Of a stretch of 22,453 nucleotides of DNA, positions 4,990 to 22,453 are shown in pieces; the first letter of the stretch is position 1; every line of letters starts with the position of its first letter. Below the pieces are notes generated by a model. That model was not told the DNA's origin, did no database searches, and was given only the letters and a program-made list of their open reading frames with translations. The stretch comes from a virus. Location of the stretch: positions 1-22,453 of IMG/VR virus record IMGVR_UViG_3300032241_003249; one strand, 5' to 3'. The position numbers and the translations under genes were made by a program.

Positions 4990-5066
4990 GGATGCCCCTA
5001 TTTTGATGGGGGCGCCCGAATTGGCCCGCTGGTACTAGCTGTCTGGAGTTAGTAGGCGCAGAGAAG

Positions 5067-5106
5067 CCCAGTGCTAGCTTCTTTTTTTTAGAAGGCTAGG
5101 ACTGGG
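5067..5106. repeat. Long hairpin with T-rich loop
   Basis: CCCAGTGCTAGCTTC at 5067-5081 can pair with GAAGGCTAGGACTGGG at 5091-5106, with one mismatch and one bulge, around a loop of eight T and one A. Because the T run is in the loop rather than after the stem, it does not look like a normal rho-independent terminator. It could extrude as a cruciform or act as a single-strand initiation or packaging signal. Confidence 0.5.
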
Positions 5107-5258
5107 TCCTGGGGGGAGTCAGTGTTTAAACTTGAATGGGGCCTTACCCGTCACGTCACAACACGAACACTAGGTACATACGCATTCCCTTTGCTAGGGG
5201 AATTATCTGAACCTACACACATACTACCTTAAAACTGGCCAGGCGTCAAGGGGGGAGT

Positions 5259-5756: not shown

Positions 5757-5783
5757 TCAAGTTTTCTAGCAGAATACCGATGA
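5757..5783 (+). promoter_or_regulatory. Sigma-28-like promoter, copy 1
   Basis: TCAAGTTT, 11 bases, then ACCGATGA. The E. coli FliA consensus is TAAAGTTT-N11-GCCGATAA, so this copy has seven and six of eight matches with the canonical spacing. The spacer holds TTCT-AGC-AGAA, a small inverted repeat shared with the other copies. It points at the gene starting at 5837. Confidence 0.6.
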
Positions 5784-6341: not shown

Positions 6342-6369
6342 TCAAGTTTCTAACAGAATATGCCGACAA
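6342..6369 (+). promoter_or_regulatory. Sigma-28-like promoter, copy 2
   Basis: TCAAGTTT, 12 bases, then GCCGACAA (seven of eight match the FliA -10). The spacer carries TTCT-AAC-AGAA overlapping the -35 end, as in copy 1. It lies wholly between two genes and points at the DUF932-like gene at 6424. Confidence 0.6.
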
Positions 6370-6423
6370 GTTTTTTGTAAGTAAATTCAAAGCAACAAAA
6401 CTACCCACACAAAGGAATTTATC

Positions 6424-7149
6424 ATGAACAATCAGCTTATCCTTAAAACTCGCGAAGGCCTAAATCGTCCTACCTTAGCCACTTTGGACCAAGCAGAACT
6501 AATTCAGCACACCACGGCCACACTAGCTAAAGTGGCACCGGCTACTAGCTTCCTGTACAGTTGTCGCACCCAGGATAAATCTCACACCAAAGCCGCTAAA
6601 CAATACGGCGGTGGCTCGGTGTACCGGCACATGTTGCGCGCCAATACTTCTGTCAATGTAAATAGTGATTTACTTTATCCGCAAATTACTATTATTGACC
6701 GTACCTTTTCTGGCGCGTCTTTAAAAGTTTACGTAGGATTTTATCGGATTATTTGCAGCAACGGCCTAACTGTTTCAGTGGGCGAAACTTTGTCCTGGTC
6801 AATTGACCATCGATTATCCTCCGCCGTTCAACTTATGGAACTTAGTCGCAGCATCGCAGCTGCATGGTCTCAAGTAATTCAAGCGCAGACTGTTCTAGCC
6901 AACGCGGCAATTGCTTCAATCAATCCTATTCAAGCTATTGACAATTTATCCATGTTTTCTATTCGCCAAAAAGAACAGTTAAAACAAGCGTTGCCTACTG
7001 CCCGTCCCGAAGATAATGTGAATACCGTATACGGCCTTTACAATTTCTTAAATGAACAGGACAGACTAACCGCGCGGCGCGGCAGTACCGCCTATCTGGA
7101 CAGGGATACCAACATGCTTGCTACCTTAATCGAGTTTGCCGCAGCCTAA
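6424..7149 (+). CDS. DUF932 family protein
   Basis: The 241-residue product fits the DUF932 phage/plasmid family. The hallmark is a strand pair reading GASLKVYVGFYRIICSNGLT at about residue 98, the equivalent of the family's 'L...G..R.VCSNG' core. An N-terminal region on substrate-like turns and a long helical C-terminus follow. DUF932 proteins are widespread in phages and conjugative elements near GP88-like and RadC-like genes and their activity is not established. AAGGAA lies nine bases upstream. Codon choice in this gene and the next is visibly more AT-rich than in the replication block. Confidence 0.75.
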   Translation: MNNQLILKTREGLNRPTLATLDQAELIQHTTATLAKVAPATSFLYSCRTQDKSHTKAAKQYGGGSVYRHMLRANTSVNVNSDLLYPQITIIDRTFSGASLKVYVGFYRIICSNGLTVSVGETLSWSIDHRLSSAVQLMELSRSIAAAWSQVIQAQTVLANAAIASINPIQAIDNLSMFSIRQKEQLKQALPTARPEDNVNTVYGLYNFLNEQDRLTARRGSTAYLDRDTNMLATLIEFAAA

Positions 7150-12604: not shown

Positions 12605-12632
12605 TCAAGTTTCTGTTCGAATGTTCCGATAA
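12605..12632 (+). promoter_or_regulatory. Sigma-28-like promoter, copy 3
   Basis: TCAAGTTT, 12 bases, then TCCGATAA (seven of eight match FliA -10). The spacer has TTCT-GTT-CGAA. It lies in the gap between the nuclease gene and the gene at 12691, implying that the replication block is part of the same regulon as the early genes. Confidence 0.6.
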
Positions 12633-12690: not shown

Positions 12691-13113
12691 ATGTCAAGTC
12701 AAGCAGCCCCAGTCGCCAAGTACATCCTCAAGATTAAGGAGGAAGCTGGCCTCAAGGAAGTTGGCAAAGTGGTGGAACGGGAAGGCGCAAACGGTTCCGT
12801 CTACATGACAGTGGAAGGCACCGACCTGATTGTTGGCACCAATAAGGACGGCCATTTAGTGCTTAAGAAAAAGAACGCGGACCCGGATGCAGAGTATGCT
12901 TACTCCACCATCACCCGCCTCTTTGAGAACGAGTCCAAGAGCGGTAACGCCTATCACCGCGGCAAGACTCAGGAGGGGGTAGTCTATATGATGTTTCCCA
13001 ATACCCCAAAAACAAAGGGCCGCAGCGGCGGTCGCAATTTCCAGTCCTCCGGTGCAGCCAAGCAAACGGGAGCTAAGCCCGCAGGCAACGGCTTCCAGCG
13101 CCGGCAAGCTTAA
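12691..13113 (+). CDS. Possible phage DNA-binding protein ahead of polymerase
   Basis: This 140-residue protein starts at the ATG at 12691 with AAGGAG about eight bases upstream; an earlier GTG at 12601 would start inside the promoter. The first 100 residues look beta-rich (VVEREGANGSVYMTVEGTDL, then IVGTNKDGHLVLKKKNADPD). The tail is a low-complexity Gly/Ser/Lys/Arg segment (KGRSGGRNFQSSGAAKQTGA). A compact beta domain with a flexible basic tail beside nuclease and polymerase genes would fit a single-strand or general DNA-binding protein. No acidic SSB tip is present, so this is a guess. Confidence 0.6.
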   Translation: MSSQAAPVAKYILKIKEEAGLKEVGKVVEREGANGSVYMTVEGTDLIVGTNKDGHLVLKKKNADPDAEYAYSTITRLFENESKSGNAYHRGKTQEGVVYMMFPNTPKTKGRSGGRNFQSSGAAKQTGAKPAGNGFQRRQA

Positions 13114-16687: not shown

Positions 16688-16852
16688 ATGTATCCGGAAA
16701 CATACGAACATTTAATGGACGCATTCATTCTGCTAAAGATTGAGAAAGAAATTGCCGATAAGAAAGTAGAGTCTTTAACCTCTCTTATTCAGGAAATGGA
16801 GCTTCAGTATGCCAAAAGCTATCCTCCAATTCAACCTCCCAGAGGAACGTGA
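16688..16852 (+). CDS. Small coiled-coil protein
   Basis: This 54-residue protein (MYPETYEHLMDAFILLKIEK...) starts at the ATG at 16688, just after the FmdB stop. KIEKEIADKKVESLTSLIQE is a clear heptad-rich coiled coil, followed by a proline-rich tip. No family recognised. A sigma-28-like sequence lies inside it at 16734-16761. The ribosome site (AAAAGGAAA) is rather far upstream. Confidence 0.55.
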   Translation: MYPETYEHLMDAFILLKIEKEIADKKVESLTSLIQEMELQYAKSYPPIQPPRGT

Positions 16853-17998: not shown

Positions 17999-18092
17999 AA
18001 GAATCCTTTTTTACCTTACCTCAATTTGGACATTGTTCTGCCTTTACATTGCCCCAAGACTTGCTTCCTGGATAATTCAACTTTTCCGTTAG
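17985..18092 (+). CDS. Tiny membrane protein immediately before lysozyme
   Basis: This 35-residue protein (MSKTKRILFYLTSIWTLFCL...) has a basic start, a hydrophobic helix at about residues 7-24 (ILFYLTSIWTLFCLYIA) and an amphipathic end (RLASWIIQLFR). GGGA lies about eight bases upstream. It overlaps the zinc-ribbon gene by 14 bases and ends nine bases before the lysozyme start. Being a membrane peptide directly upstream of a lysozyme without its own signal peptide, it is the best holin candidate in the window, though 35 residues is very short for a holin. Confidence 0.5.
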   Translation: MSKTKRILFYLTSIWTLFCLYIAPRLASWIIQLFR

Positions 18093-18101
18093 GAGTTTAG
18101 T

Positions 18102-18566
18102 ATGAACCAAAAAAGACCTGTTCCGGAAGCGGCCATTCAACTGGTTAAAGAGTTTGAAGGACTTCGGGTCGCGGCGTACCCGGACCCAGGTACCAAGGGC
18201 GCGCCGTGGACCGTAGGCTATGGACATACCACCGGAGTGTTCAAGGATACACACGTAGGTCCGGACCAGGCGAACCGGCTCCTACAACTGGACCTGGAGG
18301 AAGCTGGCCGGCAAATAGAAAACATAGTAAAGGTTCCCTTAAATGAGAACGAGTGGGCCGCTTTACTGGTGTTTGTATTCAACGTGGGCGCAGGTAACTT
18401 GAAAGGGAGCACCCTTCTTAAACTTTTAAACGAAGGGAACAGGCAGGAAGCTGCATCCGAGTTTCTCCGCTGGAACAAAGCGGCGGGAAAGGAGCTGGCA
18501 GGCCTTACCCGGCGCAGGATAAAGGAGCGGGAGCTTTTCCTGAAGGAGCCGACCAGTGAAAGTTAA
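18102..18566 (+). CDS. Endolysin, GH24 lysozyme
   Basis: This 154-residue muramidase has the catalytic region KEFEGLRVAAYPDP with Glu19 and Asp28, then WTVGYGHTTG with Thr37. That is the T4-lysozyme-type E-D-T set. It also has NEWAALLVFVFNVGAGNL as the family's helical 'FVFNVG' element, and ends with a typical GLTRRRIKERELFL. There is no signal peptide, so it needs a holin to reach the cell wall. TTAGGAG lies about seven bases upstream of the ATG. Length is normal for the family. Confidence 0.92.
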   Translation: MNQKRPVPEAAIQLVKEFEGLRVAAYPDPGTKGAPWTVGYGHTTGVFKDTHVGPDQANRLLQLDLEEAGRQIENIVKVPLNENEWAALLVFVFNVGAGNLKGSTLLKLLNEGNRQEAASEFLRWNKAAGKELAGLTRRRIKERELFLKEPTSES

Positions 18567-18780
18567 GGGCATCAAGTGTCCCAAATGCAAGCAGCTTATC
18601 TGGCCTAAAAAACCGAATGTTCCGGTACTCTGTTTTTGCGGGTACTGCTACATTGAATACATTCAAAAAGAGGGCTCCGGGCACACGAGGATAGGCTACG
18701 GTTACCCTGGCCAAAAGATGGCCGAGGTACCAAAGTACATAGACGTGAATACGGATACCGGAAAAGGGGAAACGGAATGA
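18556..18780 (+). CDS. Small zinc-ribbon protein, GTG start
   Basis: This 74-residue protein is read from the GTG at 18556, with AAGGAG seven bases upstream, overlapping the lysozyme end by 11 bases. It has CPKCKQLIW near residue 7 and CFCGYCYIEY near residue 25, giving a compact zinc ribbon, then a polar tail. No known partner. Confidence 0.65.
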   Translation: MKVKGIKCPKCKQLIWPKKPNVPVLCFCGYCYIEYIQKEGSGHTRIGYGYPGQKMAEVPKYIDVNTDTGKGETE

Positions 18781-19013
18781 GTTTATTTGCAGCAATTCTA
18801 GCAACCCAGCTTTACTGCCCTAAAACTCGTCTTTATGTGCCGGACGGGCACACGGTAACTCAGCTGGATTTGGAAACGGTAAAGCGGGCAAAGGTCCGCT
18901 GTTTTGAGTTGTATCCAGAATCGCCTTGTGCTAAGTATGTGTCCAGAAAAGGGCTTCTCGATTACCACGTAGTTTGTGGAAGTCCGAACCAAAATAGTAC
19001 TCAAGTTTTCTAA
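18777..19013 (+). CDS. Small cysteine-containing hypothetical protein
   Basis: This 78-residue protein (MSLFAAILATQLYCPKTRLY...) starts at an ATGA overlap. Four cysteines (in LYCPKT, VRCFEL, SPCAKY and VVCGSP) may bind metal or form disulfides. Its N-terminus is mildly hydrophobic but not a convincing signal peptide. The -35 box of the fourth sigma-28-like promoter overlaps its last codons. Confidence 0.6.
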   Translation: MSLFAAILATQLYCPKTRLYVPDGHTVTQLDLETVKRAKVRCFELYPESPCAKYVSRKGLLDYHVVCGSPNQNSTQVF

Positions 19014-19028
19014 CGGAACTGCCGATAA
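19001..19028 (+). promoter_or_regulatory. Sigma-28-like promoter, copy 4 (perfect -10)
   Basis: TCAAGTTT, 12 bases, then GCCGATAA, the full FliA -10 consensus. The spacer carries TTCT-AAC-GGAA. Unlike the other copies, a strong terminator follows only about 20-30 bases after the expected RNA start. Confidence 0.65.
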
Positions 19029-19056
19029 GGGAGTTGGGTGGTTCGGTAAAAGTTGC

Positions 19057-19090
19057 GCCTGCGCCCAGTTCTCTGGGCCAGGCCTTTTTT
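19057..19090 (+). terminator. Rho-independent terminator
   Basis: GCCTG-C-GCCCAG pairs with CTGGGC-CAGGC around a TTCT loop: an 11-bp GC-rich stem with one bulged base, followed by CTTTTTT. It closes the 16.5-19.0 kb operon and would also stop transcripts started at 19001 after roughly 55 bases. Confidence 0.85.
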
Positions 19091-19117
19091 AACTAAATAA
19101 CCTTAGAAGGAGAATAT

Positions 19118-19561
19118 ATGTCCAAGGACAAAGTAGCTGTAGAAATGTATTCCACTACTAAAGAGTACAGCGGCACCAGTCAGGTTCCCAATTTTGGAAT
19201 TCAAGAATACACAGGAACGCCACCGGCATATCCAATTAGCGTTGGAACCGCGCCACTTGGCGGGACGAAGCATGACGGCGGAAAACCAGACCTAAGCTTA
19301 ATACCGTACAGCGCCCAGTGTGTGGAGGCGAAGGTGTTCCAATTCGGAGCCGCCAAATATGAGCGGGACAATTTTAAGAAAGGAATGGAATCTCACCGCC
19401 TGGTAGCAGCTGCAATGCGGCACATTGGCGCTTACTGGGAAGGAGAGGATTTGGACCCAGAGTCTGGGCTTCCGCATCTGGGACACGCCCGGTGTTGCCT
19501 TGCCATGTTGATTGAATTGGAGCGGCTGAGCAGGTTAAAAGACACTAGGTTCAAGGAATAA
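19118..19561 (+). CDS. Predicted dATP/dGTP diphosphohydrolase-type (MazG-like) protein
   Basis: This 147-residue protein has a Ser/Thr/Tyr-rich N-terminal 48 residues. The domain then opens with KHDGGKPDLSLIPYSAQCVE and continues FGAAKYERDNFKKGMESHRL, MRHIGAYWEGEDLDPESG and LPHLGHARCCLAMLIELE. These blocks (GGKPDLSL, GAAKY..NW/F, HLGHA) define the DUF5664/dATP-dGTP diphosphohydrolase family of phage nucleotide pyrophosphohydrolases, all-alpha relatives of MazG, which remove nucleotide triphosphates from the pool. AGAAGGAG lies about eight bases upstream. It is the first gene after the terminator. Confidence 0.8.
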   Translation: MSKDKVAVEMYSTTKEYSGTSQVPNFGIQEYTGTPPAYPISVGTAPLGGTKHDGGKPDLSLIPYSAQCVEAKVFQFGAAKYERDNFKKGMESHRLVAAAMRHIGAYWEGEDLDPESGLPHLGHARCCLAMLIELERLSRLKDTRFKE

Positions 19562-19586
19562 ACTTTCTAAATTGTAGGAGCTAGAA

Positions 19587-19823
19587 ATGGGACAGAAAAA
19601 AACTAAGAAGCAGCCTGAGACTCCCATTAGCTTGGGGGAACGCATGCGCCGAATTCAAGAGCTGGAAGAGTGGAAACCGCCGTTCTGGATTTACTGCAAG
19701 ATGCCCGGGTTTCAAATTTCTGGCGGGAGGATTTGCCTGGACATAAACTCGGACGGGGATTCAATGAGCAGGGAGGAAGCTCTCCGGTTTTTTGAACTTC
19801 TGGTGGAAGAACTTTCAGTATGA
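19587..19823 (+). CDS. Small hypothetical protein
   Basis: This 78-residue protein (MGQKKTKKQPETPISLGERM...) has a lysine-rich start, a middle strand pair (WIYCKMPGFQISGGRICLDI) and an acidic C-terminal helix (REEALRFFELLVEELSV). AGGAG lies eight bases upstream; the stop overlaps the next start (ATGA). No family recognised. Confidence 0.65.
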   Translation: MGQKKTKKQPETPISLGERMRRIQELEEWKPPFWIYCKMPGFQISGGRICLDINSDGDSMSREEALRFFELLVEELSV

Positions 19824-20077
19824 ACATTATCGAAGCTGTCAGAACAGGAAAGCCCTTCAAAAGAACCGGCTGGCCTGCCACGGAATATCAGACCATAAAT
19901 TGGCATTCCGGATTTAGCGCGGAGGATGTCCTAGCGGAGGATTGGGAGGTGGAAAGTCCGTTAGTAACAATTACCCAAGAGCAGTTTACTGCGGCGTGGG
20001 TTGAAGCGGTAACAATTGGTCTTCCTAATAATGTAAGGGCACGAAACATAATTGCAAAAAGGCTTGGACTTAAATGA
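19820..20077 (+). CDS. DUF2829/Tad2-like small protein
   Basis: This 85-residue protein reads MNIIEAVRTGKPFKRTGWPA, then FSAEDVLAEDWEVESPLVTI. The pattern 'EA...GK...R.GWP ... F...D.LAEDWE' is that of the DUF2829 family, which includes Tad2, a phage protein that sequesters Thoeris signalling nucleotides. The second half (QEQFTAAWVEAVTIGLPNNV) is not part of that core in the examples I recall, and related 'AEDWE' proteins exist without known anti-defence activity. Tad2 is therefore a possibility only. Confidence 0.6.
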   Translation: MNIIEAVRTGKPFKRTGWPATEYQTINWHSGFSAEDVLAEDWEVESPLVTITQEQFTAAWVEAVTIGLPNNVRARNIIAKRLGLK

Positions 20078-20367
20078 TTCACGTCAAGGCTATCCCGGTG
20101 TTCGTTTACGAGACCCTTAAGAAACGGGGGATTCAGAAGCAGGCCTTGGGCCATACCAAGCTTGCCCATCCCACTGTCCTGAAAGGCTGGAAAGAGCTGG
20201 ATAAAGAGTCCTGGCCCACCATTCGCAAAGGGGACGGGGAAGTGCCCGGGGAAATTCTCTACGTAACCGCCCGGGAACTGAAGCAGCTGGACGACTGGGA
20301 GGACAGATACACCCGGCAGATTGTACACACTGAAAAAGGTGCGGCGTGGGCATACATTCACAAATAG
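20074..20367 (+). CDS. Gamma-glutamylcyclotransferase-like (AIG2/GGCT) protein
   Basis: This 97-residue protein has the GGCT fold pattern: VFVYETLKKRGIQKQALGHT at about residue 9, VPGEILYVTARELKQLDDWE in the middle and an AWAYIHK end. The usual start of the family is VFVYGTL; here Glu replaces the glycine. The acidic residue in LDDWED could be the catalytic base. GGCT-like proteins cyclise gamma-glutamyl groups; in phages their substrates are unknown. It is coupled to the preceding gene by ATGA. Confidence 0.75.
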   Translation: MIHVKAIPVFVYETLKKRGIQKQALGHTKLAHPTVLKGWKELDKESWPTIRKGDGEVPGEILYVTARELKQLDDWEDRYTRQIVHTEKGAAWAYIHK

Positions 20368-20377
20368 GAGACGTCAT

Positions 20378-21892
20378 ATGGGCGCGGCACCAAAGCAGAA
20401 GCAGAAGCAGCTTCAGAACCAGGACCGGAACATCCTTCAATTCTTTGATGCGGGAAAAACGCCCCGGCCAGGGCAGGAACTTTCCCTTAAAACGGTACAG
20501 GATACCTGGAACAAGACCGACGTTTTTGTCATAGAAATCCCCACCGCAGGGGGCAAATCCGCTACCGCCCTAACTATAGCCCGCTGGGCGCAGTCCGTGC
20601 ACAAACAAAAAAGCATGGTCCTAGTCCCGAACAATGTCCTCCTGCAGCAGTACCTGGACGGGAACCCGCGCCTTGCCACCATTCGGGGAAAGCAGGACTA
20701 TGAATGCTTGCACGGCAAGACGGAGCATTACACAATGTCCTGTAAGGAGTACTCCCAGAAAATGGGTTACACCTGCAAAGGCGTCTGCCCTTACACAGCA
20801 GCGAACCGAAAGATTCGGGCGGTCCCTTACGGCGTAGTAAACTTCTACACCTACTTAGCGCACCGACTTTACTCGGACGTGGTCATTGTAGATGAAGCGC
20901 ATAACCTACTTGGAATGCTTCGGGATTTTGCCAGCAAGAAACTGTGGAAACATCAGTACCATTACCCTGACTACATTAAATCTTATTCTGATTTATTACG
21001 CTGGGTCCAGGATAAAAGAGAGGAGAGGCAGGAGGAAGGGCAGCCGGTGGACCAGAAGCTAGAAGCTCTACACAAGGACCTTACTTCCGGCGCGCCTAAG
21101 TACCTAGTTGAAAAGGGGACCGACCTTTATTTCGGGGAGGAAAAGCCCCTTCTTAAGTTGCTTCCAATTGACACTTCGGACCAGCCGCCGATTCTTTGGC
21201 CCAGCGCCGTTAAAAAACTGGTTCTTTTGTCCGCCACTATTGGCCCTAAAGATTTGGAGCAACTGGGACTGGACAGACGCCGGGTTACCTGGATAGCAAC
21301 CCCTTCACCTATCCCTCCGGAAAGAAGGCCCATTTACGTAGATTCTCCCGGCTTGAATCTAGCATACGGTGCGCCGGCGCAGGAACTAGAAAAGGTAGCG
21401 GACCGAATTGCGGAAATTGTGAATGCGCACGCGGGGGAAAGAGGCATTCTGCATGTAACTTACGGCCTTATAAATCAGTTAGCGGGAAAGCTGGCTACCC
21501 GGATTCCTGGGGCCCGAATCCTAACGCATACTAAAGAGAATAAAAAAGAGGTGTATAAGCAGTTCCTGGAAGGGAAGCAGGACGCCGTCCTGATGTGCGC
21601 GGGACTTTACGAGGGTATTGATTTACCTGGCGACCTGGGCAGGTTTCAGGTTATAGTAAAGGTGCCCTGGCCTTCCATTGCGGAGCCTGCTTGGAAATAT
21701 CTGGCACAGAAGGACAGGGACAGATACTGCTACGAGACTTTGAAGACGGTGATGCAGGGAGCAGGCAGGGTTTGCAGAACTCCAACGGACTTTGGGGTAA
21801 CCTACCTGATAGACAGGACCTTCCAGAACATACCCACGGAACTAATGCCGCACTGGTTCCGGGAAGCGCTAGCGGCGGGAGAGCAAGGATGA
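20378..21892 (+). CDS. DinG/XPD-type Fe-S superfamily 2 helicase
   Basis: This 504-residue helicase has Walker A PTAGGKS at 55-61, DEAH at 172-175 and motif III LLSATIG. Motif V is YEGIDLPGD and motif VI QGAGRVCRTPTDFG. Between Walker A and DEAH lie four cysteines (110, 122, 133 and 137), the position of the 4Fe-4S domain of XPD/DinG helicases, which move 5' to 3'. The start is the ATG at 20378 with AGGAG about eight bases upstream. It likely serves as the replicative or recombination helicase of the phage. Confidence 0.9.
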   Translation: MGAAPKQKQKQLQNQDRNILQFFDAGKTPRPGQELSLKTVQDTWNKTDVFVIEIPTAGGKSATALTIARWAQSVHKQKSMVLVPNNVLLQQYLDGNPRLATIRGKQDYECLHGKTEHYTMSCKEYSQKMGYTCKGVCPYTAANRKIRAVPYGVVNFYTYLAHRLYSDVVIVDEAHNLLGMLRDFASKKLWKHQYHYPDYIKSYSDLLRWVQDKREERQEEGQPVDQKLEALHKDLTSGAPKYLVEKGTDLYFGEEKPLLKLLPIDTSDQPPILWPSAVKKLVLLSATIGPKDLEQLGLDRRRVTWIATPSPIPPERRPIYVDSPGLNLAYGAPAQELEKVADRIAEIVNAHAGERGILHVTYGLINQLAGKLATRIPGARILTHTKENKKEVYKQFLEGKQDAVLMCAGLYEGIDLPGDLGRFQVIVKVPWPSIAEPAWKYLAQKDRDRYCYETLKTVMQGAGRVCRTPTDFGVTYLIDRTFQNIPTELMPHWFREALAAGEQG

Positions 21893-22356
21893 AAAGTAGA
21901 CCCAAAGTTTGGGACATGCAGAAGCAACTGGCGGTAGGTGCCAAGGGGGAGAAACTGCTTCTGAAGCACTGGCCCCACCCGGTTCAAAGGCACCCCGTTT
22001 TTAAGGGCCCCGATTTCCTGGACATTCAGGACACTGTTATCGAACTTAAAACCGACACCTACGATATGGAAGCTACTCCTAATTTCTTTATTGAACGCTG
22101 GTCCAATGCGGAGACCCGGGCACCTGGCGGCCCGTGGCAAGCTCACTTGAAAGGGGTAGAAGTGTTCATCTACCTTTTTATTCAGAACAAAACCTGGTTC
22201 ATTTTTCGGGACTTACCCGCCTTGCTAAAGCGTTTGGACGAATTAACCGATAAGATGTATGTGCACAACATTCCAAATAAAGGTTGGGTGACTCAGGGAT
22301 ACAGGGTAAAACGGGCAGATTTAAAAGACTTTTACGAAGAGGTGAAACTTGTTTAG
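21889..22356 (+). CDS. PD-(D/E)XK nuclease-like protein
   Basis: This 155-residue protein has Glu21 in AKGEKLLLKH, Asp42 in GPDFLDIQ and Glu52-X-Lys54 in VIELKTDTYD, the full PD-(D/E)XK catalytic set. NFFIERWSN and GVEVFIYLFIQNKTWFIF follow as the remaining strands. It resembles small phage nucleases of the resolvase or repair type. It starts at an ATGA overlap with the helicase gene, suggesting they act together on branched or flapped DNA. A sigma-28-like sequence lies within it at 22226. Confidence 0.75.
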   Translation: MKSRPKVWDMQKQLAVGAKGEKLLLKHWPHPVQRHPVFKGPDFLDIQDTVIELKTDTYDMEATPNFFIERWSNAETRAPGGPWQAHLKGVEVFIYLFIQNKTWFIFRDLPALLKRLDELTDKMYVHNIPNKGWVTQGYRVKRADLKDFYEEVKLV

Positions 22357-22453
22357 ACAAATTAAGTTACTAATTCTTGGTTCCTTGATAGCAGCATGTT
22401 CCACTGTGGCAACTTGCAACTATCTTGTAGATAAGCCGGTGGAGTGTACCAGA
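22349..22453 (+). CDS. Start of a probable lipoprotein, cut by window edge
   Basis: A TTG at 22349, overlapping the previous stop by eight bases and with GAGGTG four bases upstream, opens a frame still open at the window end (35 codons visible). It reads as a basic start (FRQIKLL), a hydrophobic core (LILGSLIAA) and a lipobox LIAAC with Cys at residue 17, so the product should be lipidated. Such small lipoproteins in phages may be o-spanins or exclusion factors. The end is missing, so I cannot choose. Confidence 0.55.
   Translation, partial: MFRQIKLLILGSLIAACSTVATCNYLVDKPVECTR

Follow-up and report, generated by a model that had tools for sequence, protein, structure and literature searches.

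Within the 22,453 nucleotides of phage DNA analysed here (the window), the sigma-28-type promoter P4 is followed by a hairpin with a U-tract that resembles an intrinsic terminator and, behind it, by genes for a dATP/dGTP diphosphohydrolase, a DNA helicase and a nuclease (Table 1). Our preferred reading, to which we assign a probability of a little under one in two, is that P4 and the terminator form a promoter-proximal attenuator which keeps this operon at a low level. The promoter class, the hairpin, the U-tract, the order of these parts and the lack of another promoter in front of the diphosphohydrolase gene were all read from the nucleotide sequence. It is the last of these points that led us to prefer the attenuator. 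The interval from position 19090 to the start of the diphosphohydrolase gene at 19118 contains no promoter-like site and accommodates the SD sequence only. Thus, the diphosphohydrolase, helicase and nuclease genes would need read-through, either of transcripts initiated at P4 or of transcripts arriving from upstream.

Table 1. Promoter copies, elements of the hairpin region and neighbouring genes in the window
Feature	Position	Strand	Properties
Copy 1	5757..5783	+	TCAAGTTT-N11-ACCGATGA, 14/16; precedes a small ORF (start 5837)
Copy 2	6342..6369	+	TCAAGTTT-N12-GCCGACAA, 15/16; precedes the DUF932 gene (6424-7149)
Copy 3	12605..12632	+	TCAAGTTT-N12-TCCGATAA, 15/16; flanked by the Cas4-like nuclease gene and the gene starting at 12691
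Small upstream ORF	18777..19013	+	78 aa; no family match; homologs in G374, G379 and G380
P4 (copy 4)	19001..19028	+	-35-like TCAAGTTT (19001-19008), -10-like GCCGATAA (19021-19028), 12-base spacer; 16/16
Predicted short RNA	19035..19090	+	~55 nt; putative start ~19035, predicted end in the U-tract
Possible alternative pairing	19035..19067	+	19035-19040 with 19062-19067; weak
Terminator-type hairpin	19057..19083	+	11 pairs (5+6 around one bulged C); loop UUCU; dG about -21 kcal/mol
U6 tract	19085..19090	+	separated from the hairpin by one C
dATP/dGTP diphosphohydrolase gene	19118..19561	+	PF18909 (E=1.4e-30); first gene past the terminator; SD at 19107-19112
DNA helicase gene	20321..21892	+	PF13307; phrog_2488

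To identify promoters of this class, sites were scored by the number of matches to 16 bases. Five sites with at least 14 matches were detected in the window, compared to a mean of 0.03 and a maximum of one in 200 dinucleotide shuffles. The four intergenic copies (5757, 6342, 12605 and 19001) all lie on the + strand, in the rightward direction of the genes, 47 to 83 nt in front of a gene start with an SD sequence. Motif matches at 16734 and 22226 are located inside ORFs and were set aside as probably coincidental. P4, whose -35 box overlaps the final codons of the upstream ORF, is the best-matching copy in the window. Its boxes and spacer correspond to those of sigma-28 (FliA) promoters, i.e. 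a TAAAGTTT-like -35 box and a GCCGATAA -10 box about 11 to 12 bases apart. The perfect -10 box which the first-pass annotation ascribed to this copy was thus recovered (both boxes 16/16, N12 spacer), and its sigma-28-like classification is backed by repetition, gene-proximal placement and conservation across phages. The reality of the promoter class is well supported by these sequence comparisons; dependence on the sigma-28 holoenzyme is presumed. An additional element common to many sites, CCGATAAG-N4-TTGTAAG or similar, was noticed near the expected start in L145, L151, L166, L170 and L174 and at 6362-6381 of the window; it is present at the 6342 copy and absent at P4.

The class extends to other phages. 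A viral scan with CAAGTTT-N12-GCCGATAA was discarded since it returned, by estimate, about a chance number of matches, many of which were sigma-70 promoters carrying GCCGATAA in the spacer. Unlike this pattern, the stricter CTCAAGTTT/CCGATAAG pattern separated signal from chance: CTCAAGTTT-N12-CCGATAAG occurred in 44 IMG/VR stretches and the form with one extra N in 12. Many matching sequences contained multiple sites, mostly on one arm and one strand, and zero matches to a reversed control pattern. Relatives of the window and several otherwise different phages possess two to nine sigma-28-type sites each, and in five control phages whose hosts are known, none or one was found at the level of at least 14/16. 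Altogether 62 sites from the window, G001, G374, G006, G379, G380 and seven more loci (14 sources) were scored, 54 of which lie 15 to 120 nt before a gene start with SD and ATG in the same orientation, compared to 10% of random positions. As the sequences were retrieved by motif only, this placement is an independent test, although the search pattern also fixed a few adjoining bases (a C in front, a G behind). Two other arrangements were observed. In L181 (3094-8632, minus strand), the same boxes are followed by a TATAAT at six sites, e.g. CTCAAGTTT-N12-TCCGATAAGTAGGTATAATG, with a GP88 homolog nearby. Another phage family (contigs L005, L021, L022, L026, L057, L092 and L099, up to 223 kb) carries GCCGATAA within a TTGACA...TAGAAT spacer with TTTTTCnCAAGTTT in front, an arrangement that recurs from contig to contig.

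With its 22 kb, the window covers part of a phage genome whose relatives are the ~60-kb contigs G001, G374, G379 and G380. Identities to the window amount to 63-66% (portal) and 58% (terminase) for G001, 44% (terminase) for G374 and 65% (DUF932 protein) for G379. The DUF932 gene has a sigma-28-type site in front of it in the window (6342), G001 (57869, 16/16), G374 (1157), G379 (1897) and G006 (54315). The window (12605), G374 (8784) and G379 (9246) also share a site that lies between the Cas4-like nuclease gene and the gene following it. G006 is an otherwise different phage retrieved solely via the promoter pattern, and homologs of DUF932, GP88 and 8144 adjoin its four sites. At the level of at least 14/16, seven sites were found in G374 (0.04 expected) and five in G006 (0.12 expected); in G375, G376 and G377 the pattern is scarce or absent. 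The early arm of G374 (L120, 2492-2905, minus strand) also encodes an S-adenosylmethionine lyase family protein (PF23780), possibly with an anti-restriction function.

As a rule, transcription of early phage genes relies on the housekeeping sigma factor or on factors made by the phage itself. A sigma-70 family protein (TIGR02937) was detected in 14 control genomes and in none of G000, G001, G374, G375, G376 and G377; in G006, two weak matches fell short of the cut-off. Neither the window, which is a fragment, nor most of the ~60-kb relatives yielded a sigma factor, so that a FliA-type sigma factor of the host would be the simplest reader. The promoters would resemble those of phage 7-11 and phiEco32 (PMC8948821) in being read via a dedicated specificity factor and not solely via the housekeeping sigma; in those phages this factor is the phage's own sigma factor. 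A T7-type phage RNA polymerase was also considered; none was present among the large G374 proteins tested, several of which had no match. As for the host, some two thirds of the attack-phase promoters of Bdellovibrio bacteriovorus appear to be under the control of FliA via the form TTAAG-N16-CCGATA (PMC3627812), and P4 reads TCAAG-N16-CCGATA in this format. Exact genome hits to the 21-base CTCAAGTTTTCT-N8-TGCCGATAA were limited to two, both from Bdellovibrionota and one of them labelled Bdellovibrio. On the other hand, 369 Bdellovibrionota genomes contained no close terminase homolog and a single partial helicase match, and the multi-copy promoter pattern is absent from the cultivated bdellophages phi1422 and phi1402. 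Bdellovibrionota as host are therefore a weak lead.

When both strands were scanned, 19057-19090 emerged as the strongest combination of hairpin and U-tract in the window, a GC-rich hairpin with an immediate U-tract as is characteristic of intrinsic terminators. Its combined terminator score was 35.8. In ten shuffles of the whole window, one candidate came near this value (33.8) and none had a hairpin below -15.5 kcal/mol. Due to the bulge, a simple terminator scan missed the hairpin. Since the -10 box ends at 19028, the RNA probably starts near 19035, which would place the onset of the hairpin about 22 nt downstream. The 11-bp stem with a U tail roughly 20 bases past the RNA start, as described in the first-pass annotation, agrees with these data. 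From the order of P4, hairpin and U-tract an RNA of ~55 nt can be predicted. A terminator-like palindrome with a T8 tract was also seen in a divergent non-coding region (window 5044-5120).

The scheme that we infer, including the start site, the use of host sigma-28, the efficiency of termination and the purpose of the arrangement, would be as follows. Host RNA polymerase with a FliA-like sigma factor would read P4 and, within ~55 nt of the start, produce the hairpin and the U6 tract, where most complexes would stop and release the short RNA. A read-through fraction would supply the diphosphohydrolase-helicase-nuclease operon, which might be kept low passively or until relief by some factor. 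The hairpin would also halt transcripts from the upstream genes, which include a lysozyme gene; this lysozyme region was the sole match when the phage collection was searched with the DNA of positions 18000-22453. Like leader-RNA attenuators, the P4 leader has a terminator before an operon and a possible alternative pairing. It differs from them in that an Rfam search of the window gave no match, hence no known leader RNA family, that no leader peptide was seen, and that the alternative fold is far less stable than the terminator (-14.3 versus -21.8 kcal/mol) and would be stable only before the 3' arm of the terminator is made. Two further points were counted against the attenuator. The pair is not conserved in the relatives: in G374, G001, G379 and G380 the order of P4 and terminator was not found at the diphosphohydrolase gene, which is located elsewhere there. 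This says little on closer kin since the compared proteins are at most ~75% identical, mostly far less. Moreover, hairpins are common behind this promoter class, which makes a leader role possible. The earlier proposal of an attenuator controlling the hydrolase and helicase genes thus stays plausible with regard to the absence of an intervening promoter, but found no parallel at the same genes of relatives, in a known RNA family or in a strong antiterminator fold.

The main rival possibilities are a plain leader hairpin and a terminator of the upstream operon, with antitermination of the Q/AlpA type as a lesser one. It is rather unlikely, though less so than for the other rivals, that the hairpin is a stem-loop of the 5' leader acting on mRNA stability or translation, with minor termination and an incidental U-tract. 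Leaders behind sigma-28-type promoters folded far more stably than shuffles (mean z of -1.88 for ~37 leaders), compared to a mean z of -0.18 for other gene leaders of the same phages (n=298), and the enrichment was seen in the window, G374, G006, G379, L148, L162, L170 and others. In G380, the promoter after the homolog of ORF 18777-19013 is also followed soon after the start by a leader hairpin (GGGCAC-GTA-GTGCCC) without a U-tract. Owing to this enrichment, a common leader element may have given rise to the hairpin at P4. However, a U6 tract directly behind a stem of -21 kcal/mol occurs in the P4 leader only, the others leading mainly into A-rich linkers. Judged by sequence, the P4 hairpin is terminator-like by exception, special in its strength and its U6 tract.

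That the hairpin merely ends the upstream operon, P4 being weak, decayed or unused, is also unlikely. Its location 44 nt past the stop codon with which the upstream genes end and the gene order near it, which is reshuffled among the relatives, would suit such a function. It conflicts with the match of P4, the best of all copies, and would leave the downstream operon without a promoter of its own. A terminator upstream of a promoter is the usual insulating order. This is what was found in the related phages L094, L148 and L162, whose terminators lie upstream of such promoters and not downstream; at P4 the order is reversed.

A switch that would activate the operon at a later time, with a phage protein loading at P4 and enabling polymerase to move past the terminator, is improbable. 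The succession of promoter, intrinsic terminator and operon is indeed shared with lambdoid PR'-tR' (Q), e.g. in phage 21, and with Pseudomonas PalpB-tB (AlpA) (PMC9371919, PMC6606751), and a weak -10-like TTCGGTAA (5/8, read by eye and within chance) is located at 19042-19049. These systems, however, combine a sigma-70 promoter with a loading site and a known protein; for P4, neither such a site nor such a protein was found. No Q or AlpA homolog was present among the tested proteins of the window, a partial genome, and the arrangement was found once, not at every promoter copy. Finally, a gene for a ~55-nt regulatory RNA, also suggested by the first-pass annotation, is most improbable: the compact promoter-terminator unit, the predicted size and the existence of FliA-driven small RNAs in Bdellovibrio (PMC3627812) are compatible with it, but nothing further was gained in its favour, and it has no Rfam match, no conservation in relatives and no known target.

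Beyond the attenuator, a wider proposal can be made, to which we assign a probability somewhat below one in two. It may be that uncultivated phages of different genome types, sharing an early cassette, use promoters of the host flagellar sigma factor for early and replication genes and thereby tie infection to swimming, and that leader hairpins are typical of these promoters, one of which would here have become a terminator throttling the nucleotide and helicase genes. The sites have the same boxes, spacing and leaders of tens of bases as FliA promoters (TAAAGTTT-N11-GCCGATAA) and their Bdellovibrio form (PMC3627812). What separates them from FliA promoters is the repeated use for DUF932, nuclease and replication genes and the frequent C as second base of the -35 box, and their FliA dependence is predicted. 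In the part of the literature covered by our search, we found no description of phage genes transcribed from sigma-28 promoters. If the proposal is true, infection would hinge on motility or, if the host is a predator like Bdellovibrio, on its life stage, and sigma-28-type promoters would help to point to the hosts of many anonymous contigs. The terminator behind P4 is a simple site for measuring how such a phage doses its nucleotide-pool and helicase genes. The position of the diphosphohydrolase gene varies among the window, G374, G001, G379 and G380, similar to a moving cassette, and the region 19820-20077 of the window shows a weak match (E=1.2e-4, below the curated cut-off) to a Tad2-like domain of Thoeris anti-defence.
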